In this document: positions 3,757 through 22,741 of the stretch, piece after piece
Layout of the letters: each line of letters begins with the position of its first letter
Position numbering within the stretch: position 1 is the stretch's first letter
Source of the DNA: an uncultured Oscillospiraceae bacterium
Lineage (GTDB): Bacteria; Bacillota; Clostridia; Oscillospirales; Oscillospiraceae
Length of the DNA: 35,510 nt
Assembly: GCA_944385705.1 (NCBI GenBank)
Contig: CALWYF010000022.1
Span: forward strand, 1-35,510
Reading direction: 5' to 3'
Notes under the pieces: model-generated
The model's database searches: none
What the model was told of the DNA's origin: nothing
The model's input: only the letters and a program-made list of their open reading frames with translations
Position numbers and translations under genes: made by a program

Positions 3757-3768
3757 GTACATAGTTTC

Positions 3769-6255: not shown

Positions 6256-6285
6256 TTGAAAGCCTGGCCTCAACTGTGATATGAT
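6256..6285 (+). promoter_or_regulatory. promoter of the tandem GT2 genes
   Basis: Plus-strand -35 TTGAAA (6256-6261) and -10 TATGAT (6280-6285) are 18 bp apart. A GAGGTG ribosome site follows just before the first GT2 start codon. Confidence 0.6.
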
Positions 6286-6311
6286 GTTAAGCAATGATTT
6301 GAGGTGAAAAC

Positions 6312-7298: not shown

Positions 7299-7310
7299 GG
7301 GGGCGCAGCC

Positions 7311-8327: not shown

Positions 8328-8372
8328 GTATAAATTAAAGGCGGGGCCAAAGCCCTGCCTTTAATTTATACT
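8327..8372. terminator. bidirectional intrinsic terminator between convergent GT2 genes
   Basis: Arms at 8327-8347 and 8352-8372 form a 21-bp stem with one G-T pair and a CAAA loop. The GC core is flanked by T-rich and A-rich ends, so it can end transcription from both sides: the tandem GT2 genes on + and the Wzy/GT operon on -. Confidence 0.85.
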
Positions 8373-8376
8373 CTGT

Positions 8377-9315
8377 TCATCTAGAAAGTCTAGCCTTTAA
8401 ATCCAGCATACCAATAGCCAGCCGGTCCAGACCCAGATAATTAAGCCGCATGATAAACCTTCTCTTTCCGCTCTCCTTTTTGTAAGCGGAACAATGAACC
8501 AGATCCGGTATCTTTTCCCGCACATAGGCCCGAAGCCGGGAGAGCACCTCGTCCCGATCCGGTGTCCTTTGCCGGGACACCCGGCTGACGGTATCCAGAA
8601 GCACATGGTTTATAAGGAAAAATTCAAATTCCTCCCTGTGCTCCGGCAGCATATACTCTGCGAGCATGTCCATTATCTTCAGCATATCCAGGTTCTTTGC
8701 GGAGTTGTTGTTGCACATGGTGGAATCCTGGTGTCTGCGGTAGATATACAGCGGTTCCTTTACATATTCGATTTTGTTTGCCCTTATAAGCATCAGAGCG
8801 GAGAAATAGAAATCCTCGTACCATAGTCCCATGGGGAAGCGTATATCCCCCACCAGCTCCCGGCGAAAGACCTTGTTGCAGGCAGAGCCCGCCGCAGCCA
8901 GGGGATGCTCCTGAACGCAGGCGGGGAGCACTTCCTCCCGGCCGTCGTCATAGCGGGCCAGCCAGTCACAGACCGCCACATCGGCCCCGGTCTCCTCCGC
9001 TCTGGCAATGAGCTTTTCGTACATGTCCGGAGCAATGCTGTCGTCGCTGTCTATAAAACCCAGGAATTTCCCCCGGGCCTCAGGGATGGCAAAGTTCCTT
9101 GCCCGGCCCTGTCCGCCGTTATCCACCCGGCGCAGTCTTATCAGCTCCGGGTATCTGTCCCTGTACTCCTCCAGCACGGCAGCAGTACCGTCAGTGGAGC
9201 CGTCGTCCACCAGCAAAATTTCATAGTCCTCCAGGGTCTGGTTTACCAGGGAATCCAGACATTGACGGATATAGGGCAGAACATTGTAAACCGGAACAAT
9301 AATACTCAGCTTCAT
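8377..9315 (-). CDS. Family 2 glycosyltransferase (third)
   Basis: A 312-residue GT2 enzyme. Motifs: MKLSIIVPVYNV at the start, VDDGSTDGT near 38-46, GGQGRARNFAIPEA, and FIDSDDSI near 88-95. The LWYEDFYFSALML block corresponds to WYEDLRT in the tandem pair, so all three belong to one subfamily. The start ATG at 9315 overlaps the stop of the upstream membrane gene (TGATG), showing translational coupling. An open extension of five codons upstream is less likely. It is the last gene of the three-gene minus-strand glycan operon. Specificity unknown. Confidence 0.9.
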   Translation of the reverse strand: MKLSIIVPVYNVLPYIRQCLDSLVNQTLEDYEILLVDDGSTDGTAAVLEEYRDRYPELIRLRRVDNGGQGRARNFAIPEARGKFLGFIDSDDSIAPDMYEKLIARAEETGADVAVCDWLARYDDGREEVLPACVQEHPLAAAGSACNKVFRRELVGDIRFPMGLWYEDFYFSALMLIRANKIEYVKEPLYIYRRHQDSTMCNNNSAKNLDMLKIMDMLAEYMLPEHREEFEFFLINHVLLDTVSRVSRQRTPDRDEVLSRLRAYVREKIPDLVHCSAYKKESGKRRFIMRLNYLGLDRLAIGMLDLKARLSR

Positions 9316-10796
9316 CAAGGTTTTCTCCAAAGATTGTTTTCCTCTGTCACGGGCTTAACTCTGGTCTGATAGTATATGAGTCCCAGCACCAGGGCCATAT
9401 AGAAGGATACGTTGGGCCGCCGCAGCACCGAGCCGGAGAACTGAGCCAGACCTATAAACAGAGCGAAGGTAATAAGCAGGATAAAGTTGTCCGTGGTAAA
9501 GGCGGTCTTGAAGTTTTTCAGCAGCCGCCAGATTATCAGCAGAGCAAAGTAGGCCACAAAAGCCACATAGGCTCCAAAGCCCAGGTAACCGTAGTAGTAG
9601 AATATGGCGGGCCAATCGTTCTCCAGGTCGCAGCTGCCCGTGAGCCAGATGTCGGAGACATCGATGCCGAAGAGGTGGGTCAGGCCGTCGCTGTGCTTCC
9701 ACATAATGGAGGCGTAGGCGCTCTTTTGCTGTCTGACGTTTATAAGGGTCTGAGCATCGGTAGTAAAGTCATACTCCTCCATTATCTCGTCAATGGTGAA
9801 GCGCTCGAACATGTTGGGCATAATGCTCCAGAGCATTTTCCTGTAATAGTCCTCAAAAACCTGATGTACCTCCGGGTCGGAAAGTATATCCTCTTCGCTG
9901 ATAGTGTTGATATCGTAGCCCATAGCCTCCAGCTGCTTGTCTATCTCGCTCTGGTTGAGCTGGGCAAAGCTGGTCTGGGCAAAGCGGACCTTGTACATAG
10001 GAGTATACGGCGTCACCAGCGCCGACAGAGCCGACAGGGCCAGCAGCGTTATCACCACCGGCTTTTTGAGCTTTGTGCCTTTGATGAATTTTTCCGCTAT
10101 CATGAATCCGGCAAAGCCCGTGAATATCACGTAAACTGCAAAGTAGCAGGCCTTGGTGCCGTTGGACAGGAGCACCAGCAGCGTCAGGGCGGGCACCAGT
10201 ATATTCACCAGGAGTTTTTCCGACTTCACTGCGCAGAAGACGGAGAAGGCCGCCAGGGTTACAACTATCACGCTGTTGGCGCAGCGGTTGTCGTCGATGA
10301 CCCAGCCGCTTATTCCCAGGCCGTCGCCGTAGGTGACGTTGGCGGTGCCGGTAATCCAGGACAGGCCGATGGAGGCGGCGGTGATGGCAGCGGCAAAGAA
10401 GAGGCCCCAGTAGGCCTGGTTTCTTGTCTGCTCATTTCGTATGCAGTGGACAAAGCACACAGCCAGAATAGGCATCTGGGCAGTCTTGGCCGCATAGGAG
10501 ATGTCAAAGCTCATGCTCACGTAGCCTATACGCATGCAGTTGATAATGTGTAGCAGACAGACAGCAGCAATGGCTGCCATGGACAGGATGAAGGCTCTTT
10601 TCTCCTTCAGGGCAAAGAGGAGATACAGGGGCAGCAGCAGCATTATCATCAGTCTGATAACCCCCGCCATGGTGCCCTCGGGATTTTTTGTCCAGTAGGC
10701 AAGAATATCCAGCACCGGCTGAAGGATAATAAGCAGCATGAGCCAGTGGTTCTGGAAGTAATTTCTTATTGACTTTATCTTGTAGTTTTCACTCAT
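9315..10796 (-). CDS. O-antigen ligase / Wzy polymerase-like polytopic membrane protein
   Basis: A 493-residue protein with many hydrophobic helices (roughly 10-12) and one large extracytoplasmic loop, at about 255-390, rich in acidic and polar residues. This is the layout of the WaaL/Wzy family, which joins or polymerises lipid-linked oligosaccharides outside the membrane. The family is too divergent for me to name catalytic residues. The start ATG at 10796 overlaps the upstream stop (ATGA), and its own stop overlaps the next gene. Both partners are glycosyltransferases, which supports a polymerase or ligase role in making a cell-surface polysaccharide. An export function is less likely because no flippase fold is seen. 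Confidence 0.75.
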   Translation of the reverse strand: MSENYKIKSIRNYFQNHWLMLLIILQPVLDILAYWTKNPEGTMAGVIRLMIMLLLPLYLLFALKEKRAFILSMAAIAAVCLLHIINCMRIGYVSMSFDISYAAKTAQMPILAVCFVHCIRNEQTRNQAYWGLFFAAAITAASIGLSWITGTANVTYGDGLGISGWVIDDNRCANSVIVVTLAAFSVFCAVKSEKLLVNILVPALTLLVLLSNGTKACYFAVYVIFTGFAGFMIAEKFIKGTKLKKPVVITLLALSALSALVTPYTPMYKVRFAQTSFAQLNQSEIDKQLEAMGYDINTISEEDILSDPEVHQVFEDYYRKMLWSIMPNMFERFTIDEIMEEYDFTTDAQTLINVRQQKSAYASIMWKHSDGLTHLFGIDVSDIWLTGSCDLENDWPAIFYYYGYLGFGAYVAFVAYFALLIIWRLLKNFKTAFTTDNFILLITFALFIGLAQFSGSVLRRPNVSFYMALVLGLIYYQTRVKPVTEENNLWRKP

Positions 10797-13015
10797 GTCT
10801 CTATCACCGAATACCATTTCTCCGCCACCTTTTCCTCTGAGAATTCCCTGGAGTGGAGCAGGGCGCAGCGGCCCATCTCTCTCAGAAGTTCAGGCTTGGC
10901 CATCATTTCAAGGAGTCTCTTTTCATAGGCCGCCTCATCCCCCTCCGGCACCAGATAGCCGTCCTCTCCCGGATGGACGATGAAGCCGGGGCCGACCCGC
11001 ACGTCGTAGGCCAGGATGGGCAGGGCGCAGCTCTGTGCCTCCAGCAGAACGAAGGGGAAACCCTCGGAGCTGGAAGACATGGCAAAGACGGAGGCTTTGC
11101 ACATTTCCTCTTCCACCTGTTCTCCGCTTTTCTTCCCGGCCAGGAGGACGTAATCCTCCGCCCCCAGCTCATGTATCTCCTGAGCCAGAGCGGCAGCATC
11201 CTCCCCGTCTCCCAGAATCTTCAGTTTCCAGTCTGGAGCCTGGGGGTGTATGCGGGCAAATTGCTTCATCAGCAGGTCGAAACGCTTGACCTTCGTGAGC
11301 CGCCCGGCGGCCAGCACCGTCTTCTCCCTTGGCCGCAGCTCCGGGTGCTGGGGATAGTGAACCAGGAAATTAGGCATGTAAATCAGTTTGGTGTGGCGGT
11401 TTTTCCCCGCCATCATCCTCTCTGCTTCCTCCACCAGCTGGGGCGTCAGCAACGCCAGGATATCTATGCCCTCATAGCCCTTTTCAAAGCCCCTCACATA
11501 TTTCTTCTCAAAGCGGTGGTCGTGGTGCAGCTGGCCTATCTTCAGGACATTGGGGCTGCCGTAGCGAGATAAGAGCAGATTGTGTTCGTGGCGGGTGGTA
11601 ATTATCACACCGTCCTGAATGTTTTTGATGACTCTGATTACGGAGCGCCGCTTGCCGATCAGTATCTTCACGCTCCTGATGCTCTCTTTTATAAAGCGCA
11701 CAGGCCTGAGCTCCCGGAGCGCCGCCTTCCATTGTTCCCTGTTTGGGGTGTCCCCCAGCAGATAGAGGACCCGCACACCCTCCGCTACCGGAAAAGCAGG
11801 GGAATCCGGCATGTCGTAAACGCTGAACAGCTTCACCTCATAGCGCCGGGCAAAGAGGTTGGCCATACTGATGATGGCCTTTTCCACTCCCCCCATGCCC
11901 AGGTGCAGGGCAATGATGTTTACTGTCTTCTTATTTTTCACCTGCCCGGCCCGGAAGTCCTCCTGAGCCAGAGCCTTGATGCTGTTTATTATCTCTGCGT
12001 TGTATTGGCGCAGGTCGTCTCTCTGTTTAGGCACTCGCCGGGCTTTCACAATGGCGTCCAGCATGTCCTCCCGGCCCACCAGTCCACGGCTGTACCTCTC
12101 CAGGTTCTTGGTGCAGTAGAGGGGCAGGCCCAGAGCTTTGGCCTCCATGATGTTTAAAGGCTGGCCTTCATATCGGGAGGTGGAAACGAAGGCGTCCATC
12201 CTGTCCATGTATTTGAAGGGGTTGGTCTGCTGGCCCAGGAATGTGACCTTGTCGGTGAGCCCCAGGCTGTCCCTCTGATATTCCAGAGCAAAACGCTTGT
12301 CCCCGTCCCCTATGATGTAAAGGTGCAGATCGTCCCTGTATCTGGCCGCCTTGGCAAAGAGCTCCAGCATGATATCGTAGCCTTTCTGGTGGCATAACCT
12401 GCCCAGAGCCACAAAGTTCAGCTTGTCCGGGTCCGGGGAAAAGTCAAGGGCTTCTCCCGCCTTCTGATATATCTCCCCGGTGTCGATGGTGTTTTGGATG
12501 ACGGTGAATTTCTCCGGGTCGTAAATGCCGCTGCTGACCATAAAGGGCTCTATTACCCCTTGGGAGACGCCCACAAATTTGTCGTAATATTTGAACTTGT
12601 CCTTGAAGTTGAACCACAGGACCCGGTACTTCCACTCGTTTTCCAGCTTCACGCTGACATTGTTGTGTATCCACATCACCCGACGCTTGGCCGGGACGGT
12701 GAGAGCCCCAAGGGCGCAGGAGAACTGGTAGGAGTTGAAGTCTATAGCCAGGTCGTACTCCGGGCAGTCTCCGAAATCCAGGCTCACCATATTCCTGGCG
12801 ATGTCAAAAGGGATGAAGGAGCAGAGCCTCGGCAGGTGCTTCAGGTATTTTATATTCAGCTGGGGCGGAAAATCCACCTTCCAGAAGGACTTCTTGTCCG
12901 AAAGGTAGAGATCCACCTGAAAATGCTCATAGTCAAAGTTCCGCAGGAGGTTCACCAGGGACTTCTGAATCCCTCCCACGTCCAGATTATCCTGAAAGAA
13001 GGCTATCCTCTTCAT
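10793..13015 (-). CDS. Tandem double-domain GT4-type glycosyltransferase
   Basis: A 740-residue protein with two GT-B glycosyltransferase units. The first, about 1-365, starts FFQDNLDVGGIQKSL. It carries FVALGRLCHQKGYD near 218-231 and the E-x7-E-type nucleotide-sugar motif SRYEGQPLNIMEAKALGLP. The second, about 372-740, starts HLGMGGVEKAI and carries VLAAGRLTKVKRFD and SSSEGFPFVLLEAQSCALP. Each half is close to the size of a complete GT4 enzyme and both keep their nucleotide-sugar motifs, so two successive sugar transfers are plausible. No membrane helix is evident. It is the first gene of the minus-strand glycan operon, with a promoter at 13051-13079. Confidence 0.88.
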   Translation of the reverse strand: MKRIAFFQDNLDVGGIQKSLVNLLRNFDYEHFQVDLYLSDKKSFWKVDFPPQLNIKYLKHLPRLCSFIPFDIARNMVSLDFGDCPEYDLAIDFNSYQFSCALGALTVPAKRRVMWIHNNVSVKLENEWKYRVLWFNFKDKFKYYDKFVGVSQGVIEPFMVSSGIYDPEKFTVIQNTIDTGEIYQKAGEALDFSPDPDKLNFVALGRLCHQKGYDIMLELFAKAARYRDDLHLYIIGDGDKRFALEYQRDSLGLTDKVTFLGQQTNPFKYMDRMDAFVSTSRYEGQPLNIMEAKALGLPLYCTKNLERYSRGLVGREDMLDAIVKARRVPKQRDDLRQYNAEIINSIKALAQEDFRAGQVKNKKTVNIIALHLGMGGVEKAIISMANLFARRYEVKLFSVYDMPDSPAFPVAEGVRVLYLLGDTPNREQWKAALRELRPVRFIKESIRSVKILIGKRRSVIRVIKNIQDGVIITTRHEHNLLLSRYGSPNVLKIGQLHHDHRFEKKYVRGFEKGYEGIDILALLTPQLVEEAERMMAGKNRHTKLIYMPNFLVHYPQHPELRPREKTVLAAGRLTKVKRFDLLMKQFARIHPQAPDWKLKILGDGEDAAALAQEIHELGAEDYVLLAGKKSGEQVEEEMCKASVFAMSSSSEGFPFVLLEAQSCALPILAYDVRVGPGFIVHPGEDGYLVPEGDEAAYEKRLLEMMAKPELLREMGRCALLHSREFSEEKVAEKWYSVIET

Positions 13016-13050
13016 TAAGACATCCTCACGAAAACATGTTATGACAGTTT

Positions 13051-13079
13051 ATTTTAACTCAAAATCTCCCGTATGTAAA
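13051..13079 (-). promoter_or_regulatory. promoter of the GT4-Wzy-GT2 operon
   Basis: Minus-strand -35 TTTACA (13074-13079) and -10 TAAAAT (13051-13056) are 17 bp apart, each one base from consensus. The start site falls about 30 bases before the GT4 ATG, and GTGAGGA supplies the ribosome site. Confidence 0.65.
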
Positions 13080-13111
13080 GTTTAAGCTGTCTCTCTCTGC
13101 TTCAGCCGCAA

Positions 13112-13146
13112 AAATTCTCCCGGAGCTGACTGCTCCGGGAGATTTT
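13112..13146 (-). terminator. intrinsic terminator of the one-carbon operon
   Basis: A perfect 11-bp stem (13116-13126 with 13132-13142, loop TGACT) lies just after the cyclo-ligase stop codon. On the minus strand it is followed by AATTTTTGC, a typical U-tract. It separates the folate operon from the glycan operon that follows on the same strand. Confidence 0.88.
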
Positions 13147-13149
13147 GCA

Positions 13150-13704
13150 TCATGTCTGTTTTCTTCTATATACCCGCTCTTCCGTCACCACGGCATCCAT
13201 GGGGATGTCCCAGCTCTGAGCCTCAAGGGCCTCCGCCCGCTGAAACTCGTAGGCCACGGCAACGAATTTTGCTTTGGTGCACCTGAGCAGGAAACGGTCA
13301 TAATAGCCCCCGCCCATGCCCAGGCGGCGACAGTCCGGGTCAAAGGCGGTGCAGGGGCAGAGCACCAGATCAATTTCCTCCGGAGCAATTTCCCGGGAGA
13401 GCTCCCGTACAGGCTCCGGTATACCAAAGGCCCCGGTTTTCCAGGCCTCCTCCCCCTCCGGCAGCAGGGCGCACATCTCTCCGGGTCCGGTGCACAGGGG
13501 GTAGGCAAAGACCTTCCCCCGGAGCAGCTCCAGACTCACCTCTCCCTGAACCGCCCTGTATATCATCACGATCCGGGCCAGTCTGTATTCCGGCAGCTCC
13601 TCCACTTTTGAAACTATACGCCGGGAAAGTTCTTCCACGGTGTCCCGGCTCAGAGCCTTTCTGGCGCAGCGCATCTCCCGGCGGAGCCGGTCCGTTGACT
13701 TCAT
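13150..13704 (-). CDS. 5-formyltetrahydrofolate cyclo-ligase
   Basis: ATP-dependent enzyme (MTHFS, YgfA/FAU1 family) converting 5-formyl-THF to 5,10-methenyl-THF, so rescuing a dead-end folate. The 184-residue length is typical. The N-terminal basic R-R-E-M-R region, the FAYPLC strand and the signature GMGGGYYDR at 129-137 are present. The start overlaps the folD stop by 4 bp (ATGA), so it is co-translated as the last gene of the operon. In this context it returns formyl-folate to the methenyl pool used by FchA and FolD. Confidence 0.94.
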   Translation of the reverse strand: MKSTDRLRREMRCARKALSRDTVEELSRRIVSKVEELPEYRLARIVMIYRAVQGEVSLELLRGKVFAYPLCTGPGEMCALLPEGEEAWKTGAFGIPEPVRELSREIAPEEIDLVLCPCTAFDPDCRRLGMGGGYYDRFLLRCTKAKFVAVAYEFQRAEALEAQSWDIPMDAVVTEERVYRRKQT

Positions 13705-14582
13705 TTCAGTCTCCTCTCCGCCGCCGTGACCACATGCTTCATCAGCACCGCAGAGGTAGCCCGGCCCACTCCTCCCGGCACCGGGCTTATTGCCTCCACA
13801 GTCTTTTCCACTTCCTCATATATGGCGTCTCCCACGAAGCCTCCCAGGCTTCCGTCGGCATTTTCCAGCTCCGGCAGAAAGTTCATGGACACATCCAGCA
13901 CCGTCTGGCCCGGCCGCACCATGTCGCCTGTGAGGAGTCCCGGTCTTCCTGCGGCGCAGATTATCAGGTCTGCCTGTCGGCAGATGTCTCCCAGGCCTTC
14001 CGTGCGGCTGTGGCAGAGAGTGACGGTGGCATCCCTGGCCGTCAAAAGCATAGCCAGGGGCTTTCCCACCACCAGGCTTCGGCCTATCACCGCCGCCCTT
14101 TTACCCCGGCAGTTAATGCCGTAGTAATCCAGTATCTCCAGACAGGCCTGGGCAGTGCAGGGGGGAAATCCCGCTCCCTCCCCTGTGTATACAGCAGCGG
14201 CAGAGGCGGCGGTGCAGCCGTCCACGTCCTTCTCCGGTGAAAGGACATTGCATATCTCCCTCTGCTTCGCTGCAAGCGCTCCCGGCAGAGGCCGGAATAT
14301 AAGGCAGCCGTGGACTTTGGCATTGGCGCTGAGTTCTTCCAGCAGCTCCTTCAGTTTCTCCGGGGCTGCAGTCTCCGGCAGCACACAGCTTTCCGTCTCT
14401 ACTCCGCTTCGGGCAGCCTGGCGCCGTATACTCTTCTCGTAGGCGATATCGTCTTCCCGCTCTCCGCAGCGGACCAGAGCCAGTTTCGGGACTATGCCCT
14501 GCTCCCTGAGAGCGACACAGCGCCGGGATATATCCTCCTCCAGGGCGGCGGCCACCTCCCTGCCTGATAAAAGCTTAGCCAT
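13701..14582 (-). CDS. folD: FolD-type methylene-THF dehydrogenase, apparently lacking the cyclohydrolase residues
   Basis: Interconverts 5,10-methylene-THF and methenyl-THF. The 293-residue protein has the usual two domains. The Rossmann motif IGRSLVVGKP lies at 166-175 and the folate-site loop PVPGGVG at 268-274. Y48 and D121 (KDVDG) of the active site are kept. The catalytic lysine that normally sits four residues after the Tyr is Ile52. The Gln of the family's VQLPLP motif is replaced, the segment reading IFRPLP. In characterised FolD enzymes that Lys and Gln serve mainly the cyclohydrolase step, so this one is probably a dehydrogenase only. FchA, two bases upstream, would supply the cyclohydrolase. 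From memory, clostridial FolD proteins with a similar MFRPLP pattern exist. Its ribosome site AGGGGAGG spans the fchA stop. Confidence 0.93.
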   Translation of the reverse strand: MAKLLSGREVAAALEEDISRRCVALREQGIVPKLALVRCGEREDDIAYEKSIRRQAARSGVETESCVLPETAAPEKLKELLEELSANAKVHGCLIFRPLPGALAAKQREICNVLSPEKDVDGCTAASAAAVYTGEGAGFPPCTAQACLEILDYYGINCRGKRAAVIGRSLVVGKPLAMLLTARDATVTLCHSRTEGLGDICRQADLIICAAGRPGLLTGDMVRPGQTVLDVSMNFLPELENADGSLGGFVGDAIYEEVEKTVEAISPVPGGVGRATSAVLMKHVVTAAERRLK

Positions 14583-14583
14583 T

Positions 14584-15213
14584 TTACCTCCCCTGCTCCA
14601 GAAGAGCAGCCTTCACTTTGCCGTATATATCCCCCCAGAGCCGTTCACAGCTGTGCTGCATCTCAAGGCAGGCGGCATTCAGCTTTTCGGCCTGTTCCCT
14701 GTCCCTGAGGCTCCCGGTGTTGATGTACACGTTCAGCGCCGCCGAATCCACGGCGGCCTTTAGCATGGCGGCGGCACAGCCGGCATCGGACACCGCCATC
14801 ACCGAGCCTTTTTCCGCCATCACTGCCGTCAGTTCCAGGGCCCGGCAGCCCAGTTCCATTATCTTTTTTGGAGCGGCGCAGGCTGTGAGAGTGGCCCTTT
14901 CCAGCTTCTCCTCCCGGCCCGGCTCCTCCTTCGGCAGTTTGTAGGCCCGGCTCAGAGGCAGGAAGGCCTCCGCATCCTCCGTCACTGCGTCCAGCAGCTT
15001 TTCCCGGAGCCTTTCCAGCTCCGCCGCCGCTGCCTTTATCTCCTCTTCTGCCCCGGCATAGCGTTTCTTGCCCACCGTAAGGGCGGCCACCATTTCCCCC
15101 AGGGCTGCCCCCAGGGCTCCTGCAAGGGCCGCTGCACCGCCGCCCCCGGGAGTCGGGCTGGAGGAAGCCAGCAGCCGGGTAAAGTCCCGGCAGCTCTCCT
15201 TTGTGTAGTCCAT
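14584..15213 (-). CDS. fchA: Cyclodeaminase/cyclohydrolase family protein (FchA, methenyl-THF cyclohydrolase)
   Basis: A 209-residue all-helical protein of the FTCD C-terminal/FchA family. In acetogens and purine fermenters such proteins hydrolyse 5,10-methenyl-THF to 10-formyl-THF, or release ammonia from formimino-THF. Signatures: the N-terminal TPTPGGGGAAALAGALGAAL near 21-40, then MVAALTVGKKRY, and the later SDAGCAAAMLKAAVDSAALNVYIN. It sits 12 bp after the homocysteine methyltransferase and 1 bp before folD. The FolD lacks cyclohydrolase residues, which makes the cyclohydrolase role more likely than formimino-THF deamination. Confidence 0.88.
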   Translation of the reverse strand: MDYTKESCRDFTRLLASSSPTPGGGGAAALAGALGAALGEMVAALTVGKKRYAGAEEEIKAAAAELERLREKLLDAVTEDAEAFLPLSRAYKLPKEEPGREEKLERATLTACAAPKKIMELGCRALELTAVMAEKGSVMAVSDAGCAAAMLKAAVDSAALNVYINTGSLRDREQAEKLNAACLEMQHSCERLWGDIYGKVKAALLEQGR

Positions 15214-15225
15214 GTTATGATCCTC

Positions 15226-16437
15226 TCAGATTATAAGTCCGTATCTTTCGCAGAGGGGCAGCAGCTCCTCTTCCCTTATGTTTCCCTCGTACATAGCCCG
15301 TCCCTGATAGAGCCTCAGAGCCTGTTCCAAAAGCCCTGCATCTTCGCAGCAGAGACAAAGGGGCTTGGATATCATGAACTGGCAGTCGGCAAAGGCAGAG
15401 AGGTCTTCCTCTGTCCTGATGGCTATTGCCACCATCTCCCCCTCCTGCTCTTCCATAAGCTCATCCTCCAGCTCCTCTCCACAGCTGAGCACCTCCCCGT
15501 GCTTTGCCGCCGGGTCCAGGAAGAAGACCTCCTTCTCTGTGGCACAGGGCAGCTTGTCACTGTGCATAGGTGCCGGCGGGAGCATATCCAGAGCGGCGCT
15601 GCCCTTTGCCAGAGCTTCCACATGTCCGGCCTCCGTGCCGCAGCAGCCGCCGAAGATGCAGACCCCCGCCCGGGCCATTCCGGGAACGCAGGCGGAGAAT
15701 TCCTCCGGCGGGCAGTTGTATACTGTCTTTCCGTCCACCGTCTCCGGCATACCCGCGTTGGGCTTTGCCATCAGAGGTATGCGGGCTATTTCCCTCAGCC
15801 TCTCCAGCTGAATCAGCATCTCCTCCGGGCCCACGGAGCAGTTGAGACCAAAGGCGTCCGCCCCCATGCCCTGCATTATCTGCAAAGCCGCAGTTACGTC
15901 GCTGCCGGTGAGAGTGCGGCCCTTCTCGTCGCAGGTAAAGCTGACAAATACCGGCTTCTCACTGACGCTCTTCACCGCCAGCAGTGCTGCCCTGGCCTCC
16001 GCCACTGTCATCATTGTCTCAATGACGAAGAGGTCCACCCCGGCCTTTTCCAGAGCTGCCGCCTGTTCGGTGTAAATCTCCACCAACTCGTCAAAGGATG
16101 CGGTGCCCAGGGGATAGAGCATCAGGCCCGTTGGTGCCAGGTCCCCGGCCACCCAGGCTCTGTCCCCCGCCGCCTTGCGGCTGAGATTCACCAGAGCCTG
16201 ATTATATTCTTCTACCTTGCCGAAAATTCCGTGCTGTTCCAGCTTCACCCGGTTTGCTCCGAAGGTGGGAGCATATATTACCCGGCTGCCCGAGTCAACA
16301 TAGCTGCGCTGTATCTCCAGTATGGCCTGGGGATGCTTCAGCGTCCAGCTCTCGGCGCACTCCTCTCCCGTGTAGCCCTGTTTCTGCAGCTGGGTGCCGG
16401 TGGCTCCGTCCAATATAAGGGGAAAGCTCAGTTCCAT
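15226..16437 (-). CDS. Homocysteine S-methyltransferase-like protein (MetH N-domain type) with extra C-terminal region
   Basis: A 403-residue protein whose first ~280 residues match the homocysteine-binding barrel of MetH and BHMT. It starts FPLILDGATGTQL, and the zinc-binding cysteines are present: C200 (GLNC) and C265-C266 (GGCCG). Methyl groups would be transferred from a methyl-corrinoid to homocysteine, giving methionine. Residues ~290-403 form a separate acidic region ending in LYQGRAMYEGNIREEELLPL. That tail faintly resembles one strand-helix unit of the MetH folate-binding barrel, but is far too short to be a working one. The ATG overlaps the RACo stop (ATGGAACTGA), so the two are tightly coupled. 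No corrinoid domain is in this protein; the fused one at 18606-20321 is the obvious partner. A different thiol acceptor is possible. Confidence 0.85.
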   Translation of the reverse strand: MELSFPLILDGATGTQLQKQGYTGEECAESWTLKHPQAILEIQRSYVDSGSRVIYAPTFGANRVKLEQHGIFGKVEEYNQALVNLSRKAAGDRAWVAGDLAPTGLMLYPLGTASFDELVEIYTEQAAALEKAGVDLFVIETMMTVAEARAALLAVKSVSEKPVFVSFTCDEKGRTLTGSDVTAALQIMQGMGADAFGLNCSVGPEEMLIQLERLREIARIPLMAKPNAGMPETVDGKTVYNCPPEEFSACVPGMARAGVCIFGGCCGTEAGHVEALAKGSAALDMLPPAPMHSDKLPCATEKEVFFLDPAAKHGEVLSCGEELEDELMEEQEGEMVAIAIRTEEDLSAFADCQFMISKPLCLCCEDAGLLEQALRLYQGRAMYEGNIREEELLPLCERYGLII

Positions 16438-17966
16438 TCCAGTTCATCCTCCTTGCCAAACATCATATGTGCCGGAAAAGCCCGGTTGAAGCGGGCGTCC
16501 CCGGAGAGTTCAATATACCTGCATTTTTTCTGTATCCTGTACAGCTCCTCGCGGCTGCCCATGTCCAGCAGAGCCATGGACGCCCCGCCAAGAGCGCTGT
16601 TGCCTATAGCCTCCGCCCTGTCCACCAGCTCCTCCGGCAGCATGCCTATGGCCGCTGCGGCCTTAACGTCCAGGCCTGAACCAAAGCCCCCGGCTATATA
16701 CACTCCGCCAATATCTCCGGGGCATATTCCCAGCTCCTCCATAAGTACATCTATCCCGGCGGCCACGGCAGCCTTGGCCAGCTGCAGCTGTCTCACATCC
16801 CCGGCAGTCAGGTACACCCTCTCCGTCAGATGCAGGCAGCCGTTTCCGTTCTCGTCTTCATCCAGCCACTCCCCCAGCTCCTCCGGGGCCTCCTCCGGAG
16901 GCAGCAGCCGGCCGCCCTCATCCACAGCCCCCAGCTCCAGCAGCAGGGCCAAAAGGCTGATAAGACCGGAGCCGCAGAGGCCCCTTGGCTCCTCGCCGCC
17001 TATTGTCTCCATTTCAAAGCCATTTTCTTTCCATTTTACCGTCTTCACAGCTCCGGGCATACCGGCCATACCGCAGCTGATGCCCGCCCCTTCAAAGGCC
17101 GGCCCGGAGGCCACGGCACAGCAGGCAAAACCGCTTTCGCCGCCCAGGGCCATCTCCCCGTTGGTGCCTATGTCAAGGAACAGGTTTAATCCCTCCCTGC
17201 TCCCCAGTCCCGAGGAAAGCAGCCCCGCCAAGACATCTCCCCCTACGTAGGCGGCTACACAGGGAGCGGCAAAGGTTTTAATATTTTTTATGTAAACCGG
17301 AGTCTTTTCCATAAAAAGGGTCAATGGCTTAAAGGGAGCCAGGGCCATCCCCGCCGGGGACAGGCCCATAAATATGTGCTCCATTACCGTGTTGCCCACC
17401 GCAAACAGCTCCTCCAGCTCTTTTCCCTCTCTGCCGGACCTGACCATGAGCTTATGGATAAGGGAAAAAACCTGGCTTTGTATCCGTTCTTTCAGCAGCT
17501 CCAGGCCGTCATCATGCTCAATGACATACTGGCAGCGGCTAATTACATCCGCTCCAAAGGAGCTCTGGCTGTTCCAGGCGCCGCAGCTGCCCAGCTCCCG
17601 GCCATCGGTAAGGTCGAAGAGCTTAAGGGCCAGAGTGGTAGTTCCGATATCCACGGCGACCCCCAGGCCACTGCGGCCGGTATAATGTGTTATGTCAACC
17701 TGTTTGCCTTCCCGACATATTGCTTCGTCCCCTTGCTCCGGCAAATACAGGCTGATATCTCCCTCTATCCTGTAACGGCAGGCCAGAACGCTCTCCCGGC
17801 CTGCGCTGCTTTCAATCTCCACCCGGCATTTGCCGCATTTCCCGTTTCCTCCGCAGGGCGCAGACAGCTCCAGGCCGTTACGGCGCAGGATTTCCAGAAG
17901 ATTCTCCCCGGTTTTCCCTTTTAATTCAAAGTATTTGCCTCCTTGACAGGCCAAAATCCTTGACAT
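16428..17966 (-). CDS. RACo/RamA-like ATP-dependent corrinoid-protein reactivase (2Fe-2S ferredoxin + ASKHA, DUF4445)
   Basis: Reduces inactive Co(II) corrinoid proteins to Co(I), driven by ATP. The 512-residue protein starts with a 2Fe-2S ferredoxin domain (cysteines 38, 44, 47 and 63, in CGGNGKCGKC). The C-terminal actin-like ATPase part includes VAVDIGTTTLALKLFD near 103-118, FLDIGTNGEMALG, GLCGSGLISLLA and IAGGFGSGLD. It is somewhat shorter than the roughly 600-residue RACo proteins I know, mainly between ferredoxin and ATPase parts. It is first in the operon with the homocysteine methyltransferase and is divergent from the corrinoid fusion protein, its likely client. The -35 of the opposing promoter covers its start codon. 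Confidence 0.9.
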   Translation of the reverse strand: MSRILACQGGKYFELKGKTGENLLEILRRNGLELSAPCGGNGKCGKCRVEIESSAGRESVLACRYRIEGDISLYLPEQGDEAICREGKQVDITHYTGRSGLGVAVDIGTTTLALKLFDLTDGRELGSCGAWNSQSSFGADVISRCQYVIEHDDGLELLKERIQSQVFSLIHKLMVRSGREGKELEELFAVGNTVMEHIFMGLSPAGMALAPFKPLTLFMEKTPVYIKNIKTFAAPCVAAYVGGDVLAGLLSSGLGSREGLNLFLDIGTNGEMALGGESGFACCAVASGPAFEGAGISCGMAGMPGAVKTVKWKENGFEMETIGGEEPRGLCGSGLISLLALLLELGAVDEGGRLLPPEEAPEELGEWLDEDENGNGCLHLTERVYLTAGDVRQLQLAKAAVAAGIDVLMEELGICPGDIGGVYIAGGFGSGLDVKAAAAIGMLPEELVDRAEAIGNSALGGASMALLDMGSREELYRIQKKCRYIELSGDARFNRAFPAHMMFGKEDELEWN

Positions 17967-17988
17967 ATTTTTGCCCTTTTCCTATAAT
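17960..17988 (+). promoter_or_regulatory. consensus sigma-A promoter of the DUF2284-corrinoid methyltransferase operon
   Basis: A perfect match: TTGACA (17960-17965), 17 bp, TATAAT (17983-17988). The -35 overlaps the start codon of the divergent RACo gene. Transcription would begin near 17995, giving a leader of about 67 bases before the DUF2284 ATG. Confidence 0.85.
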
Positions 17989-17991
17989 TAT

Positions 17992-18008
17992 TTTAAGTAC
18001 TTTAAGTA
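17992..18008. repeat. direct repeat TTTAAGTA x2 between opposed promoters (candidate operator)
   Basis: TTTAAGTA occurs at 17992-17999 and 18001-18008 with one base between (9-bp period), also creating the palindrome AAGTACTT at 17995-18002. It lies at the start sites of both facing promoters, a good place for one regulator to control both operons. No regulator gene for it is recognised in the window. Confidence 0.45.
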
Positions 18009-18037
18009 TGATATACAGCAGATAAGGCTTTTGTCAA
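18008..18037 (-). promoter_or_regulatory. promoter of the RACo-homocysteine methyltransferase-fchA-folD operon
   Basis: Minus-strand -35 TTGACA (18032-18037) and -10 TATCAT (18008-18013) are 18 bp apart. The start site is near 18001, about 35 bases before the RACo ATG. It points toward the + promoter at 17960-17988, so RNA polymerase could hardly occupy both at once. Confidence 0.65.
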
Positions 18038-18061
18038 GGAGCATTGTGAAAGGAGCGAAAT

Positions 18062-18619
18062 ATGCCGGATCTTTTTCAGCTGGCCAGGCAGAACGGCTTC
18101 GAGCATATTGCTCCTCTGTGCATGGAAGCTCTGGAGCCTTTGCCGGAAGTGCGGGAGATGTGCGCCTCGGGCCGCTGCCTCAAATACAACCGCTGCTGGA
18201 GCTGTCCTCCCGCCTGCGGCAGTCTGGAGGACACTGCCCGTCGCATGAGCCTATACCGCCGGGGTATCCTGGTTCAGACCGTGGGGGAGCTGGAGGATGA
18301 GTTTGACAGCAAAGGCATTGCTCTGGCCCAGTCCAGACACAAGTCGGCTTTCTCAAACCTGGCCCGGCAGGCCAGATGCCTGGAGCCGGACTGCCTGCCT
18401 CTCACCGCCGGGGCCTGCACTCTCTGCCTTAAGTGCACCTGGCCGGACAAGCCCTGCCGTTTTCCTCACAGGCGGCTGTCCTCCATGGAGGCCTACGGTC
18501 TTCTGGTGAGCCGGGTTTGTATGAGTTCCGGTCTTAGGTACAATTACGGTCCCGGGACCATAAGCTTTACCTCATGTATTCTGTTCGAAAGGGAGCGGGA
18601 GCCAAATGCAGAGTCCTAA
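18062..18619 (+). CDS. DUF2284 cysteine-rich predicted metal-binding protein
   Basis: A 185-residue protein with 14 cysteines, clustered at 34-52 (including C45-x2-C48-P-P) and 106-132 (C-x2-C-x2-C near 119-125, then C132). It has the DUF2284 layout, including SMEAYG near 141-146 and a final strand with C172. The family is predicted to bind metal or an Fe-S cluster and, as I recall, often sits beside corrinoid methyltransferase genes; its biochemical role is not known. The ATG has an AAAGGAG ribosome site. The gene overlaps the UroD-corrinoid fusion by 14 bp, so the two are translationally coupled. An electron-transfer or cobalt-handling role is only a guess. Confidence 0.85.
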   Translation: MPDLFQLARQNGFEHIAPLCMEALEPLPEVREMCASGRCLKYNRCWSCPPACGSLEDTARRMSLYRRGILVQTVGELEDEFDSKGIALAQSRHKSAFSNLARQARCLEPDCLPLTAGACTLCLKCTWPDKPCRFPHRRLSSMEAYGLLVSRVCMSSGLRYNYGPGTISFTSCILFEREREPNAES

Positions 18620-20321
18620 GGAAATTTTTCTTGAATTACTGAAGCCCGACGGGAAACCCGAGCGGCAGCTGAAGCAGTACGAAGCGCTGCACATAGTGCT
18701 GAATGACCCGGTAAACAGTTATCTTCGGGCCGGCCGGGGCAAGGGACGGACTAATATTGACCGTTGGGGCACCACAATAATGTGGCCGGAAGACGCTCCG
18801 GGCCCCATGCCCCACATTACCCCGGAGACTAAGGTATGCCCGGATGTCACCCGCTGGCGGGAATACGTCCACGCTCCGGATCTGGCCGCCAACTGCTCCC
18901 GGGGCTGGGAGACCTGTGCCGCCGCTGCCAGGGAAGCCGCGGGAGACAGCAAAATTGTGGCGGGCTTCATGGGCACCGGCATATTTGAAGAGTGCCATTT
19001 TCTCATGGGCTTTGAGGACACCCTCACCAATCTCTACGAGCACCCGGAGGAAATGCATCAACTTATTGAGTATATTACAGATTATCGTATACAATTCGTC
19101 AAATTACTTATTGACGGACTGGCCCCGGATATGATATTCTCCCATGACGACTGGGGTGCAAAGGATTCCCTATTTATGAAGCCGGAGATGTGGCGGGATT
19201 TCTTCAAGGAACCCTACCGGCGTTTCTACGGCTACATCCGCTCCCGGGGCGTCATAGCTCTGCACCATGCCGACTCTTACCTGGTTCCCATTGTGGAGGA
19301 CATGGCCGAAATAGGTATCCAGGTCTGGCAGGGTGTACTGCCGGACAACGATATACCTGCCCTTCAGCGCCGGCTGAAGGGGCGCATGGTGCTCATGGGC
19401 GGCATAGGTGCCGCCATTGATCGGCAGGATACTTCCGAAGAGGAAATACGCAGCTATGTGGGCCGCACTCTAAAAGCTTGCTGCCCCGGCGGGCACTTTA
19501 TCCCCAGCATCACTTACGGTCTGGCCGGGACCGTGTTCCCCCATGTGGACCCCATCATCGACGATGAAATCGATAAATACAATTCGGTGCTCCACATGCC
19601 GGCTGTAGATGTACCCCCTCTGCCCCGGCGCATTACTGCCCCAAAGGCGGATATCTCCGTAAAAGCCGGAGAGGAGAGGGGCGGCGGCCTGCTTTCCCAG
19701 CTGTCTCAGGCCCTGTGCCGCGGACAGAAAAAGAAAGTGCTGGAACTGTGCCGTCAGGGTCTGGACCAGGGCCTTGAGGCCAGAGAGCTGCTTGACCGGG
19801 GTCTCGTGGCCGGTATGACCAAGCTTGGGGACGACTTCACCGCAGGCCGGGCTTTTGTACCGGAGATGCTTATGGCAGCCCGCTGCATGGCGGCGGCCAC
19901 TGAGCTTCTCAAGCCTTGGCTCGTAAGCGGTGGAGAAAAAGCCGTGGGCCGTGTAGTGCTTGGGACCGTGAAGGGTGACATGCACGATATCGGCAAAAAC
20001 CTGGTCAAAATAATGATGGAGGGCTGCGGCCTTGAGGTCATAGACCTGGGCGTGGACGTAAGTCCTGAGGACTTCGTAAACACCGCCATCGAGAAAAACT
20101 GCGGCATTATCGCCTGCTCTTCCCTGCTCACCACCACCATGGCGGAAATGCGCCGGGTCGTAAATCTGTCGGTGGAAAAAGGTATCAGGGATAAAATAAA
20201 AATAATGATTGGGGGCGCTCCCATCACTCAGAGCTTTTGTCAGGAGATCGGCGCAGACGCCTACACCGCCGACGCAGGTCAGGCGGCCAGGGTTGCCGTA
20301 GCACTTCTGAAAAGCACATGA
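18606..20321 (+). CDS. Fusion of a UroD/MtaA-type methyltransferase and a corrinoid-binding protein
   Basis: A 571-residue protein. Residues 1 to about 340 are a UroD-fold domain like MtaA/MtbA/MtvB methyltransferases (FSHDDWGAKDSLFMKPEMW, MGGIGAAID, GGHFIPSITYG). About 360-440 is the helical cap of corrinoid proteins. About 445-571 is the B12-binding Rossmann domain, with D458-x-H460-x-x-G (lower cobalt ligand His460), SSLLTTTM and IGGAP. In methanogen and demethylase systems these two parts are usually separate proteins. Where MtaA has its H-x-C zinc motif, this protein has H220-H-A-D-S-Y, so the metal site must differ. The substrate is unknown. Divergent RACo, homocysteine methyltransferase and folate genes supply reactivation and acceptors. 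The start is supported by GGGAG upstream. True uroporphyrinogen decarboxylase is excluded by the B12 domain. Confidence 0.9.
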   Translation: MQSPKEIFLELLKPDGKPERQLKQYEALHIVLNDPVNSYLRAGRGKGRTNIDRWGTTIMWPEDAPGPMPHITPETKVCPDVTRWREYVHAPDLAANCSRGWETCAAAAREAAGDSKIVAGFMGTGIFEECHFLMGFEDTLTNLYEHPEEMHQLIEYITDYRIQFVKLLIDGLAPDMIFSHDDWGAKDSLFMKPEMWRDFFKEPYRRFYGYIRSRGVIALHHADSYLVPIVEDMAEIGIQVWQGVLPDNDIPALQRRLKGRMVLMGGIGAAIDRQDTSEEEIRSYVGRTLKACCPGGHFIPSITYGLAGTVFPHVDPIIDDEIDKYNSVLHMPAVDVPPLPRRITAPKADISVKAGEERGGGLLSQLSQALCRGQKKKVLELCRQGLDQGLEARELLDRGLVAGMTKLGDDFTAGRAFVPEMLMAARCMAAATELLKPWLVSGGEKAVGRVVLGTVKGDMHDIGKNLVKIMMEGCGLEVIDLGVDVSPEDFVNTAIEKNCGIIACSSLLTTTMAEMRRVVNLSVEKGIRDKIKIMIGGAPITQSFCQEIGADAYTADAGQAARVAVALLKST

Positions 20322-20452
20322 GGCCCCGCTCGACTGCGGCCGCTTTTATTCCCGGCATGTAGTCCGACCGCTTTACGGGCTATGCTCTCCGGTTTTTCGG
20401 AGGGAGCTGATGGGTTAAAATCGCTTATCGATATTTGAAAGGAAGGTTTGTT

Positions 20453-22741
20453 ATGGCACGGAAGAATGTTGATTCAAGCATGAAGAAAACCACCGTGAAA
20501 GAGGCGGCAGCAACGACTGCGGAAAAAGATATCCAGGTCCCGGTTAAGGCTGCATCCGCTGAAAAGGCCGCTCCTGTAGAAAAAAAGACTGAGCCCACAG
20601 TGGAGAAAAAAGCAGCCGTCGCAGAAAAGAAGGCTGAGGCTGTTGAAGAAAAGAAGGCCCCTGCCGCAAAGAAGAAAACTACTGCCGCAAAGAAGAAGGC
20701 ACAGCCTGTGGCAGAAGAGAAAGCCGCTTCTGTTGAAAAGAAGGCTGAACCCGTTGTGGAAGAGAAGACCGCCGCTGTTGAAAAGAAGGCTGAACCTGCT
20801 GCGGAAGAAAAACCCGCTGCTGTGAAGAAGAAGGCAGGATCCGCTTCAGAAAAGAAGACTGCCACAACAAAAAAGAAGGCTGAGCCTGCCGAGAAGAAGG
20901 CCGCTGCTCCTGTGAAAAAGAGAGCTGCCGCTTCCAGGAAGAAGGCAGCCGCTCCCGTCGTTGAAGCCGCTCCCATTGTGGAGGCTGCTCCCGTTGAGGA
21001 AGCTGCTCCCGTCGTGGAGGCCGCTCCCGTTGTGGAAGAAGCTGCTCCCGTCGTGGAGGCTGCTCCCGTCGTGGAGGCTGCTCCCGTCGTGGAGGCTGCT
21101 CCCGTTGTGGAGGAAGCTGCTCCCGTCGTGGAGGCTGCTCCCGTTGTGGAGGAAGCCGCTCCCGTCGTAGAAGAGGCTGCTCCCGTCGTGGAAGAAGCTG
21201 CTCCCGTCGTGGAGGCCGCTCCCGTCGTTGAGGAGGCTGCTCCTGTCGTTGAGGAAGCCGCCCCAGTGTTTGACATCTCAACTTTGCCCCGCAGAAGCGT
21301 TGCTTTCATAGGTTCCGAATGTCATCCCTTTGTAAAGACCGGCGGTTTGGGCGACGTGATGTATGCTCTTCCCCGGGAGCTGGTGAAGCTCAATTGTGAT
21401 GTGCGGGTCATTTTGCCCCGCTATGCCTGTATCCCCAGAAAGTTCCAGGACAAGATGGTCTACCGGGGCGAATTCTATATGGATCTCGGCAGCACCGGCC
21501 GCAACTACTATGTGGGCATAATGGAGTACGTCTGTGACGGCGTTGTCTACGATTTCATTGACAACCAGGAGTTTTTCACCTCCGGCAATCCCTATACCAA
21601 TCTGGTGGATGACATTCCCAAGTATTGTTTCTTCAGTAAAGCTGCTCTGGCCGCCCTCAACTACATGAACTGGATACCGGACATCATCCACTGCCACGAC
21701 TGGCAGGCCAGCCTTGTTCCGGTGTATCTGCGTACCCTGTTCAAGGACACCCCCGTGGGACGGGCCCGGTCCATACTCACCATACATAATCTGCGCTTCC
21801 AGGGCATCTTCAACATTCCCACCATAAAGTACTGGACCGGTCTTCCCGATTCAGTGTTCAACATGGGCGCTTTGCAGCAGGACTACGTCAACGCCAACAT
21901 GCTTAAAGGCGGTCTGGCCTATGCCGACCGCATCACCACTGTAAGCGGCACCTACGCCTGGGAGATACAGACCGCCGAGTATGGCGAACGGCTTGAAGAC
22001 CACCTGCGTTACCACAGCGGAAAGCTGAGGGGCATAGTCAACGGCATCGACTACGACATGTGGAACCCCGAGACCGACCCCGCCCTGGTGGAGAATTACG
22101 GCCTGGCCAATGTCCTCAACCACAAGATGGAGAACAAGAAGGCTCTTCAGAGAGAGCTTGGTCTGGAGGAGAATGAGGGCAAGTTCGTCATCGGCCTTGT
22201 CTCCCGCCTCACCAACCAGAAAGGCCTGGATCTGGTAAGCGCCATAGTCCCCCAGGTCCTGGACGGCAACACCCAGATGGTGGTTCTGGGTACCGGCGAT
22301 GCCCAGTATGAGGACACCTTCCGCTATTACGAAGGGGCCTACAAAGGTACTTTCAGTGCCTGCATCCAGTACGATGAGGGCAGAGCCCACCGTATCTATG
22401 CCGGGGCCGATGCAGTGCTGGTACCCTCCCGCTTTGAGCCCTGCGGCCTGACCCAGCTCAACGCCATGCACTACGGCACCCTGCCTATAGTTCGTGAAAC
22501 CGGAGGTCTGAAGGACACCGTGCAGCCCTACAACGATTTCACCGGCGAGGGCAACGGCTTTACCTTTGACCGCTATGACGCCGGTCTGCTGCTGGACGCC
22601 ATTAACCGGGCCAAGACCGTCTACTTTACCAACCGCTACCACTGGGACGAGATAGTGCAGCGGGACATGGCAAAAGACGTGTCCTGGGCAAACTCCGCAA
22701 GGCAGTACAAGGATCTTTATCTGGAGCTGACTCAGTGGTAA
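20453..22741 (+). CDS. glgA: Glycogen/starch synthase (GT5) with a long low-complexity N-terminal extension
   Basis: Transfers glucose from ADP-glucose to a growing alpha-1,4-glucan. The 762-residue product is far longer than the usual ~480. The catalytic part starts near 278 (RRSVAFIGSECHPFVKTGGLGDV), with the ADP-glucose-binding KTGGL motif. It includes HCHDWQASLVPVYL, VNGIDYDMWNPE, RLTNQKGLDL and PSRFEPCGLTQLNAMHYGTLP. Residues 1-165 are Lys/Ala/Glu-rich (KKAEP and KKK blocks, histone-H1-like). Residues 165-272 are 17 APVVEA or APVVEEA units. A TTG six codons upstream is possible, but GAAAGGAAGG sits between it and the ATG at 20453. It appears monocistronic. The extension has no signal peptide or hydrophobic stretch; its role is unknown. 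Confidence 0.93.
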   Translation: MARKNVDSSMKKTTVKEAAATTAEKDIQVPVKAASAEKAAPVEKKTEPTVEKKAAVAEKKAEAVEEKKAPAAKKKTTAAKKKAQPVAEEKAASVEKKAEPVVEEKTAAVEKKAEPAAEEKPAAVKKKAGSASEKKTATTKKKAEPAEKKAAAPVKKRAAASRKKAAAPVVEAAPIVEAAPVEEAAPVVEAAPVVEEAAPVVEAAPVVEAAPVVEAAPVVEEAAPVVEAAPVVEEAAPVVEEAAPVVEEAAPVVEAAPVVEEAAPVVEEAAPVFDISTLPRRSVAFIGSECHPFVKTGGLGDVMYALPRELVKLNCDVRVILPRYACIPRKFQDKMVYRGEFYMDLGSTGRNYYVGIMEYVCDGVVYDFIDNQEFFTSGNPYTNLVDDIPKYCFFSKAALAALNYMNWIPDIIHCHDWQASLVPVYLRTLFKDTPVGRARSILTIHNLRFQGIFNIPTIKYWTGLPDSVFNMGALQQDYVNANMLKGGLAYADRITTVSGTYAWEIQTAEYGERLEDHLRYHSGKLRGIVNGIDYDMWNPETDPALVENYGLANVLNHKMENKKALQRELGLEENEGKFVIGLVSRLTNQKGLDLVSAIVPQVLDGNTQMVVLGTGDAQYEDTFRYYEGAYKGTFSACIQYDEGRAHRIYAGADAVLVPSRFEPCGLTQLNAMHYGTLPIVRETGGLKDTVQPYNDFTGEGNGFTFDRYDAGLLLDAINRAKTVYFTNRYHWDEIVQRDMAKDVSWANSARQYKDLYLELTQW
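20945..21268 (+). repeat. in-frame 18/21-bp tandem repeats in glgA
   Basis: About 17 near-identical units based on GAGGCTGCTCCCGTCGTG, some lengthened by one Glu codon to 21 bp, encode APVVEA or APVVEEA. The DNA is nearly identical between units even at third positions (GTC/GTT, GCT/GCC alternate a little), which suggests recent expansion by slippage or unequal recombination. Every unit keeps the frame. Confidence 0.9.

Follow-up and report, generated by a model that had tools for sequence, protein, structure and literature searches.

The subject of this analysis is a corrinoid methyltransferase gene set on contig CALWYF010000022.1 (here C22) of an uncultured Oscillospiraceae bacterium, which we examined as a candidate folate-independent methionine synthase. 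The window, by which we mean the whole stretch of DNA that was analyzed, is the entire contig of 35,510 bases and belongs to a draft genome (2.26 Mb; 95 contigs; 96.4% complete). The open reading frame (ORF) list gave seven genes arranged as two divergent runs with 95 bases between them, and within each run, adjacent genes overlap or sit no more than 12 bases apart. The plus-strand run holds a DUF2284 protein (18062..18619; Pfam DUF2284, 146 bits) and a 571-residue fusion of a UroD-type methyltransferase to a corrinoid domain (18606..20321; URO-D, 56 bits; B12-binding_2, 62 bits; B12-binding, 98 bits). The minus-strand run holds a RACo-type ATP-dependent corrinoid reactivase (16428..17966; RACo_C_ter, 232 bits, with Raco_middle and Fer2) and a 403-residue homocysteine S-methyltransferase, here called the homocysteine enzyme (15226..16437; S-methyl_trans, PF02574, 240 bits). 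It continues with three genes related to tetrahydrofolate (THF), encoding an FchA-type methenyl-THF cyclohydrolase (14584..15213; FTCD_C, 198 bits), FolD (13701..14582; THF_DHG_CYH_C, 171 bits), and the 5-formyl-THF cyclo-ligase MTHFS (13150..13704; 5-FTHF_cyc-lig, 119 bits). All seven products match named Pfam families above the cut-off, which bears out the coordinates, the families, and the two divergent operons described in a sequence-only reading of this DNA.

A single scan of a named genome collection, for which an alignment of the fusion served as the query, yielded 87 confirmed relatives, and 80 loci were kept (L073-L152). These loci were found via the fusion alone, and the neighboring genes were placed by tblastn. 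For neighbor counts, we used the 53 of the 80 loci with at least 5 kb of left flank and at least 2 kb of right flank and considered a gene a neighbor if it lay within 6.5 kb of the fusion. By this measure, the homocysteine enzyme accompanied the fusion in all 53 loci, DUF2284 in 50, and RACo in 32; FolD was found in 4, and FchA and MTHFS were found in 5 each. Over all 80 loci, the counts in the same order were 71, 71, 48, 4, 5, and 5. The conserved unit is the fusion together with the homocysteine enzyme and DUF2284, usually with RACo. The conserved neighborhood anticipated in the sequence-only reading holds for the homocysteine enzyme and DUF2284 and only in part for RACo. The folate genes, which that reading had placed in the set, were rejected as part of the unit because they so rarely lie beside the fusion. 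No methylene-THF reductase that might supply methyl-THF was detected in the host. As local neighbors, FolD, FchA, and the cyclo-ligase would probably serve general one-carbon metabolism, outside the relay proposed below.

The record labels of the loci include Oscillospiraceae, Ruminococcaceae, Clostridiales, Mogibacterium, Solobacterium, and others (Candidatus Limivicinus faecipullorum among them), with many from rumen or gut, and three named isolates carry the locus: Mogibacterium kristiansenii, Eubacterium pyruvativorans, and Baileyella intestinalis. Since gene order varies among groups of loci, the association is not merely an inherited order. It could be argued that the genes are unrelated and adjacent by chance, as the folate genes indeed appear to be mere local neighbors, but co-occurrence in 53/53 and 50/53 loci, from Oscillospiraceae to Mogibacterium and in varied gene orders, makes this explanation scarcely credible for the set. 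In a sample of the order (88 genomes, each at least 95% complete), a close match to the UroD domain was found in the host alone, and 20 others gave weaker matches of at most 40% identity. Taken with the record labels, this indicates that the system is confined within the order and that its other carriers include a group outside the order.

Genes recurring near the fusion in the 80 named loci also include CbiK (13 loci), FecCD (9), and CobQ (9), as judged by the Pfam matches of representatives in L118 and L121. We scanned the window and 13 of the 80 loci, in sets of seven and six, for riboswitches. None was found in the window, and none was found at the locus in the first seven related loci, where a single purine riboswitch lay elsewhere in L141. 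The only one in the second set is a cobalamin riboswitch at L121:13085-13276, directly after the homocysteine methyltransferase gene and ahead of FecCD- and CobQ-type genes. With a single cobalamin riboswitch among the 13 related loci scanned and none in the window, riboswitch control was rejected as a general feature of the locus.

Residue conservation was assessed, with the window included, in 70 homocysteine enzymes, 75 fusions, 56 DUF2284 proteins, and 37 RACo proteins, and genes that were less than 85% complete or contained a stop were left out. The RACo-type protein has an N-terminal 2Fe-2S domain followed by RACo middle and ASKHA domains, matches PDB entries 3zyy and 4c1n at 292 and 280 bits, and keeps C38, C44, C47, and C63 in 37/37 rows. 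In DUF2284, C34, C39, C48, C119, C122, C125, C132, and C172 are kept in 56/56 rows. We predict that it is an iron-sulfur protein and possibly an iron-sulfur partner of RACo; the available passages of the literature on DUF2284 give it no function. In the accessible part of one study, mutant fitness is used to infer that methionine synthases lacking the standard activation domain have their B12 reactivated by DUF4445/RamA-like proteins (PMC5764234).

The homocysteine enzyme and its C-terminal tail

The homocysteine enzyme consists of a catalytic barrel (residues ~1 to 285; Pfam match, 7 to 278) followed by ~120 residues beyond the catalytic domain, on which the sequence-only reading was silent. 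Among the matches listed, 119 of 120 homologues are 386 to 429 residues long, which is the size class of the window protein. One homologue, P0124 (603 residues), has a near-exact internal duplication of part of the barrel that may be an assembly artifact. C200, C265, and C266, which we take to be zinc ligands, are kept in 70/70 rows. The enzyme matches the MetH of Thermotoga maritima (PDB 1q7m; 220 bits), and a second, weak part of this match falls in the folate domain.

The last ~50 residues (~351 to 403) align with the folate barrel of three-domain MetH. Using hhalign with one template, we compared 13 MetH sequences (12 from the genus and one from the order) with 13 homocysteine enzymes, P0124 being left out, and obtained an E value of 3.5e-6 and a probability of 87.6%, with 38% identity over 50 columns. 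In tblastn searches, the alignment of a genus MetH, up to about residue 422 of that MetH, extends across the whole homocysteine enzyme, for example in L075, L121, and L138, and phmmer places residues 353 to 392 on residues 380 to 420 of 1q7m within the strong overall match. In the phmmer stretch, D390 and N411 of T. maritima MetH, both of which presumably bind folate, lie opposite C363 and E384, and a 25-row alignment has aspartate at position 363 in no row and asparagine at position 384 in one (L130). The complete folate barrel (PF00809) gave no match in the homocysteine enzyme; only a remnant is present, without the remainder of the barrel.

Over the 69 other rows, identity to the window protein averages 64% in the tail, 66% in the catalytic barrel, and 45% in the linker. 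Conservation of the tail thus equals that of the catalytic barrel, which makes the tail a retained part with a changed role, and the possibility that it is decaying junk was rejected on the same comparison. In a tree of 27 chosen rows (15, 8, and 4; midpoint root only), the homocysteine barrels group separately from MetH with a support of 99/93. The C-terminus of the homocysteine enzyme is what remains, in conserved form, of the MetH folate barrel, with two presumed folate ligands replaced. This remnant, which was absent from the sequence-only reading, is in our judgment the most telling evidence, and we would guess that the conserved tail is a docking surface left from MetH.

The fusion protein and its candidate methyl donor

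In the fusion, the UroD domain (residues ~1 to 345) precedes the corrinoid-binding domain (residues 363 to 570), in the order URO-D, B12-binding_2, and B12-binding. All three domains are present in 119 of the 120 homologues among the matches listed (P0083 has no B12-binding_2 call), so the fusion is not an assembly artifact. The DxHxxG motif of the corrinoid half is intact, with D458, H460, and D461 kept in 75/75 rows. Against curated models, the corrinoid half scored 192 to 176 bits for MtgC/MtbC-type carriers and 136 bits for MetH, all under the cut-offs, and against PDB entries it scored 177 bits for 1y80 and 95 bits for MetH 1bmt. By these scores, it is nearer to MtgC/MtbC-type carriers than to MetH, and inheritance of the corrinoid domain from MetH is not favored, as judged from scores only and with no tree.

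In the UroD domain, E128, H131, H180, D181, D182, E202, H220, H221, D223, and D232 are kept in 75/75 rows, and no cysteine reaches 97% conservation or more. A PDB profile search with this domain found no significant relative; the best match was MtaA (E value of 0.07). In this weak alignment, H221 and D223 fall on the His and Cys of the MtaA HxC motif, which we take to be zinc ligands. The fusion scored 29.4 bits against TIGR01463 (CmuA/MtaA), far under the model cut-off of 235.4 bits. According to the available text of Kountz and Balskus (PMC10418091), S-type UroD enzymes use a His-Cys-Cys site and O-type enzymes replace one or both cysteines. Since D223 takes the place of the MtaA cysteine in H221-x-D223 and O-type enzymes lose one or both cysteines, donor X is likely an O-methyl compound, which is the better guess. 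Considering that CdmB and a Moorella O-demethylase are described, in the part of PMC13222342 available, as lacking zinc, the presence of a metal in the UroD site is uncertain.

The same residues bear on the possibility that methyl flow is reversed or that another thiol or selenol is the acceptor, for instance from methionine or S-methylmethionine to a UroD-bound acceptor, as in UroD-type coenzyme M methyltransferases. In passages of PMC10418091, UroD-type SCMTs work on the acceptor side, and type 1 mlp clusters, for which a methyl-sulfur or methyl-selenium role is proposed, resemble the window system in combining UroD-type proteins with a corrinoid protein and a Ram/RACE protein and no folate methylase. 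These clusters are described there as having two or three UroD proteins, a separate corrinoid protein, and mostly His-Cys-Cys sites, whereas the window system has a single URO-D gene in the genome, fused, and no comparably conserved UroD-domain cysteine. The lack of conserved S-type cysteines, the placement of the MtaA His-x-Cys on H221-x-D223, and a host with no other known-type methionine synthase (see below) all argue against such a role, which we regard as rather improbable.

Among relatives of this domain, a second UroD domain, ~41% identical, lies in an 819-residue ORF at L164:9365-11824 (genome G140) that has no BLAST match to the corrinoid domain.

Methionine synthesis in the host and its genus

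In genome-wide profile searches, S-methyl_trans and URO-D each matched a single gene of the host assembly, both of them in this locus, and no gene matched Pterin_bind (PF00809, to which the folate methyltransferase MTII presumably belongs), MTHFR (MetF), or MetE. Of 14 control genomes, the same searches were positive in 9 for S-methyl_trans, 13 for Pterin_bind, 11 for MTHFR, and 10 for MetE. The check named beforehand in the sequence-only reading, whether the host lacks MetE and a full MetH, came out in its favor. As for a cognate substrate methyltransferase elsewhere, which that reading had named as evidence to the contrary, the sole URO-D gene is the one in the locus; MtaB and MTTB were not searched genome-wide. 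In the order sample, Pterin_bind was found in 69 of the 88 genomes, and the host is among the 19 without it.

We also sampled 61 genomes of the genus, all drafts, and considered a genome a fusion carrier if it had a match at an E value of 1e-150 or lower. Meth_synt_2 (PF01717) was found in none of the 61. The fusion is present in 19, and all 19 carriers have an S-methyl_trans gene, mostly in a frame of 405 to 414 codons (one of 306 and three of 420 to 488). MTHFR is absent from 17 of the 19, and in the same 17 the locus-type S-methyl_trans gene is the sole one; in G014 and G148, the two exceptions, a three-domain MetH and an Hcy-MTHFR protein are found as well. Among the 42 genomes without the fusion, MTHFR is present in 21 and absent from 21. 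MTHFR and Pterin_bind are found in 23 genus genomes each, and together in 22. Over the 61 genomes, the mutual exclusion of fusion and MTHFR gave a Fisher's exact p of 0.004, with kinship not corrected for. For Pterin_bind (3/19 carriers versus 20/42 others), p was 0.02 over all genomes and 0.66 in the 23 best genomes, defined by completeness of 90% or more and contamination of 5% or less. We regard the exclusion of fusion and MTHFR as suggestive and the absence counts as the firmer result. A separate observation is that 18 of the 21 genomes with neither route have no S-methyl_trans match and are possible methionine auxotrophs.

A Pterin_bind ORF of FolP size was found in one genus genome (fusion carrier G132, 277 codons), and because the other 60 have none, the genus probably imports folate. 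With imported folate, the UroD barrel could instead be a new methyl-folate site, so that the set would still use imported 5-methyl-THF as a rebuilt MetH. MetE uses methyl-THF, and the folate genes sit downstream in the window. The UroD superfamily includes MetE, according to the part of PMC10418091 available, which lends this idea some weight. However, the 17 carriers without MTHFR have no known internal supply of methyl-THF, a folate barrel cut to a remnant would be odd were folate still the donor, and the folate genes are not conserved neighbors. We consider a methyl-folate site in the UroD barrel unlikely, and a non-folate donor remains our preferred reading.

One genome of the same genus, G001, has no close fusion, MTHFR, or Pterin_bind and carries an unfused relative of the system (L169, G001:C71:34500-54400, positions 2584 to 16617). 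L169 has three URO-D proteins and a separate corrinoid protein that is 55% identical to the corrinoid domain of the fusion, along with relatives of DUF2284 (30% identity) and RACo (38% identity). It also has two homocysteine methyltransferases, one of which aligns with the window enzyme over its full length, tail included, at 54% identity. In L169, the same parts occur in another arrangement. Its UroD genes are interspersed with genes for a sugar-type ATP-binding cassette (ABC) importer pair and for a GntR-type regulator that has a sugar-binding domain. This hints that methylated sugars or polyols are the donors in L169; the donor of the window system is not named thereby.

The importer and the three URO-D proteins of G001 would also fit a set that mainly strips methyl groups from a nutrient to free its skeleton, with homocysteine as a sink and methionine degraded or recycled later. 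Acetogen corrinoid methyltransferase systems are described as doing so with folate as the sink in the available passages of PMC13222342, and the host has a PF06838 protein, whose family is named for methionine gamma-lyase. In contrast, none of the recurring ORF clusters with a Pfam result (clusters in at least 6 of the 80 loci; two further clusters were unscanned) is catabolic. The recurring non-corrinoid clusters encode an MgtE-type cation transporter (9 loci), an ABC ATPase (16 loci, at a median of 7 kb away), and a NEAT-like protein. Considering also that no other known-type methionine synthase was found in 17 of the 19 genus carriers, we give this demethylation role a low probability.

A predicted methyl relay and its known relatives

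We predict, with a probability of roughly 0.6, that the fusion, the homocysteine enzyme, RACo, and DUF2284 act as a folate-independent methionine synthase. RACo would bring the corrinoid from Co(II) to Co(I), with DUF2284 as a possible iron-sulfur partner; the UroD domain would transfer a methyl group from a non-folate X-CH3 to Co(I); and the corrinoid domain would then swing to the homocysteine enzyme, where zinc-bound homocysteine would take the methyl group. We infer the methyl transfer, its direction, and homocysteine as the acceptor from the sequences, which also support the proposal of the sequence-only reading that a corrinoid methyl relay leads to homocysteine and that a UroD-type domain replaces the methyl-folate domain.

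Several points weigh against a folate-independent methionine synthase. The activity and the nature of donor X are predicted from sequence, and the donor side is based on the Pfam match of 56 bits and the MtaA alignment at an E value of 0.07. The phmmer stretch in the folate domain, taken alone, is not significant (10 bits; independent E value of 3). In 21 of the 53 loci, the fusion has no RACo gene nearby, and the correlated divergence of the genes (r = 0.90 for the fusion and the homocysteine enzyme over 66 rows including the window; 0.79 to 0.86 for pairs with DUF2284 and RACo) was measured with no unrelated control pair. The exclusion of fusion and MTHFR is not significant in the 23 most complete genomes (1/9 versus 6/14, p = 0.18), 21 of the 61 genus genomes have neither fusion nor MTHFR, so that MetF absence is common without the locus too, and the genomes are drafts. 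Finally, the source of homocysteine in the host is not established, and de novo methionine synthesis is unproven for that reason. The host has no HcyBio, LuxS, or convincing PF01053 enzyme (S-adenosylhomocysteinase was not searched), and of its four proteins with a weak PF01053 match, two are of the aminotransferase type, one is of the decarboxylase type, and one is a PF06838 (Met_gamma_lyase) protein. The gene set may recycle homocysteine from S-adenosylmethionine use or from uptake rather than complete a full de novo synthesis.

The predicted system shares with MetH a homocysteine barrel with three cysteines, presumed to bind zinc, and a corrinoid domain, here on a split partner protein. It differs from MetH in that the corrinoid domain stands behind a UroD domain on this other protein and is nearer to MtgC/MtbC. 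CmuA of chloromethane users has its UroD domain first. In the part of PMC13222342 available, CmuA likewise joins the MTI and CP roles on one chain, but its partner is the MTII enzyme CmuB, whereas the partner in the window is the homocysteine enzyme. The UroD-type O-demethylase systems of MtvB, OdmB, VdmB, and MtoB, which are named in the same passages, would resemble the window system in combining a UroD-superfamily donor enzyme with a corrinoid protein and a reactivase and in having a non-cysteine candidate metal site (PMC13222342). The window system differs from such UroD O-demethylase systems in that no folate methyltransferase MTII (PF00809) was found in the host and the methyl group would end on homocysteine.

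Among methionine synthases, the split MetH of Phaeobacter, as far as the available passages of PMC5764234 describe it, is similar in having separate proteins and a RamA-like DUF4445 protein as the likely reactivator, but it keeps a separate pterin-binding protein where the window system has only the barrel remnant. MesA to MesD, in the part of PMC7857596 available, make methionine without a folate-binding domain, and MesA to MesC are predicted to take the methyl group from a corrinoid protein; they are related to the MetE catalytic domain, whereas the window enzyme is of the MetH type (PF02574). The pairing of a UroD-corrinoid donor protein and a MetH-type homocysteine enzyme appears in neither set of passages (PMC5764234, PMC7857596). 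The Phaeobacter split MetH with its DUF4445 reactivator and MesA to MesD are the nearest known ideas.

In textbooks, methionine formation is where folate and vitamin B12 meet. We propose tentatively, at somewhat less than an even chance, that the gene set adds a fifth kind to the folate-independent methionine synthases, the first to be built on a MetH scaffold, in which the folate barrel has decayed to a conserved stub and a UroD-type demethylase with its own corrinoid domain supplies the methyl group, so that gut and rumen Clostridia carrying it would make methionine from plant or host methoxy groups, uncoupled from folate. No description of this gene set was found among the titles and abstract openings listed, mostly from outside subscription journals. 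If true, the proposal would account for how methionine could be regenerated by gut and rumen bacteria in which no MetF, MetE, or folate barrel is detectable. It would also imply an extra corrinoid demand that genome-based auxotrophy predictions, seeing only a partial MetH, may miss, and it would give methyl donors derived from diet or host a direct biosynthetic use.

Two further features of the window lie beyond the seven genes. Its right part contains a phage-integrase family gene (29062-29952), and a starch/glycogen synthase gene (20435-22741) encodes a repetitive N-terminal extension of ~275 residues, rich in Ala, Pro, Val, and Glu, that precedes the catalytic domain.

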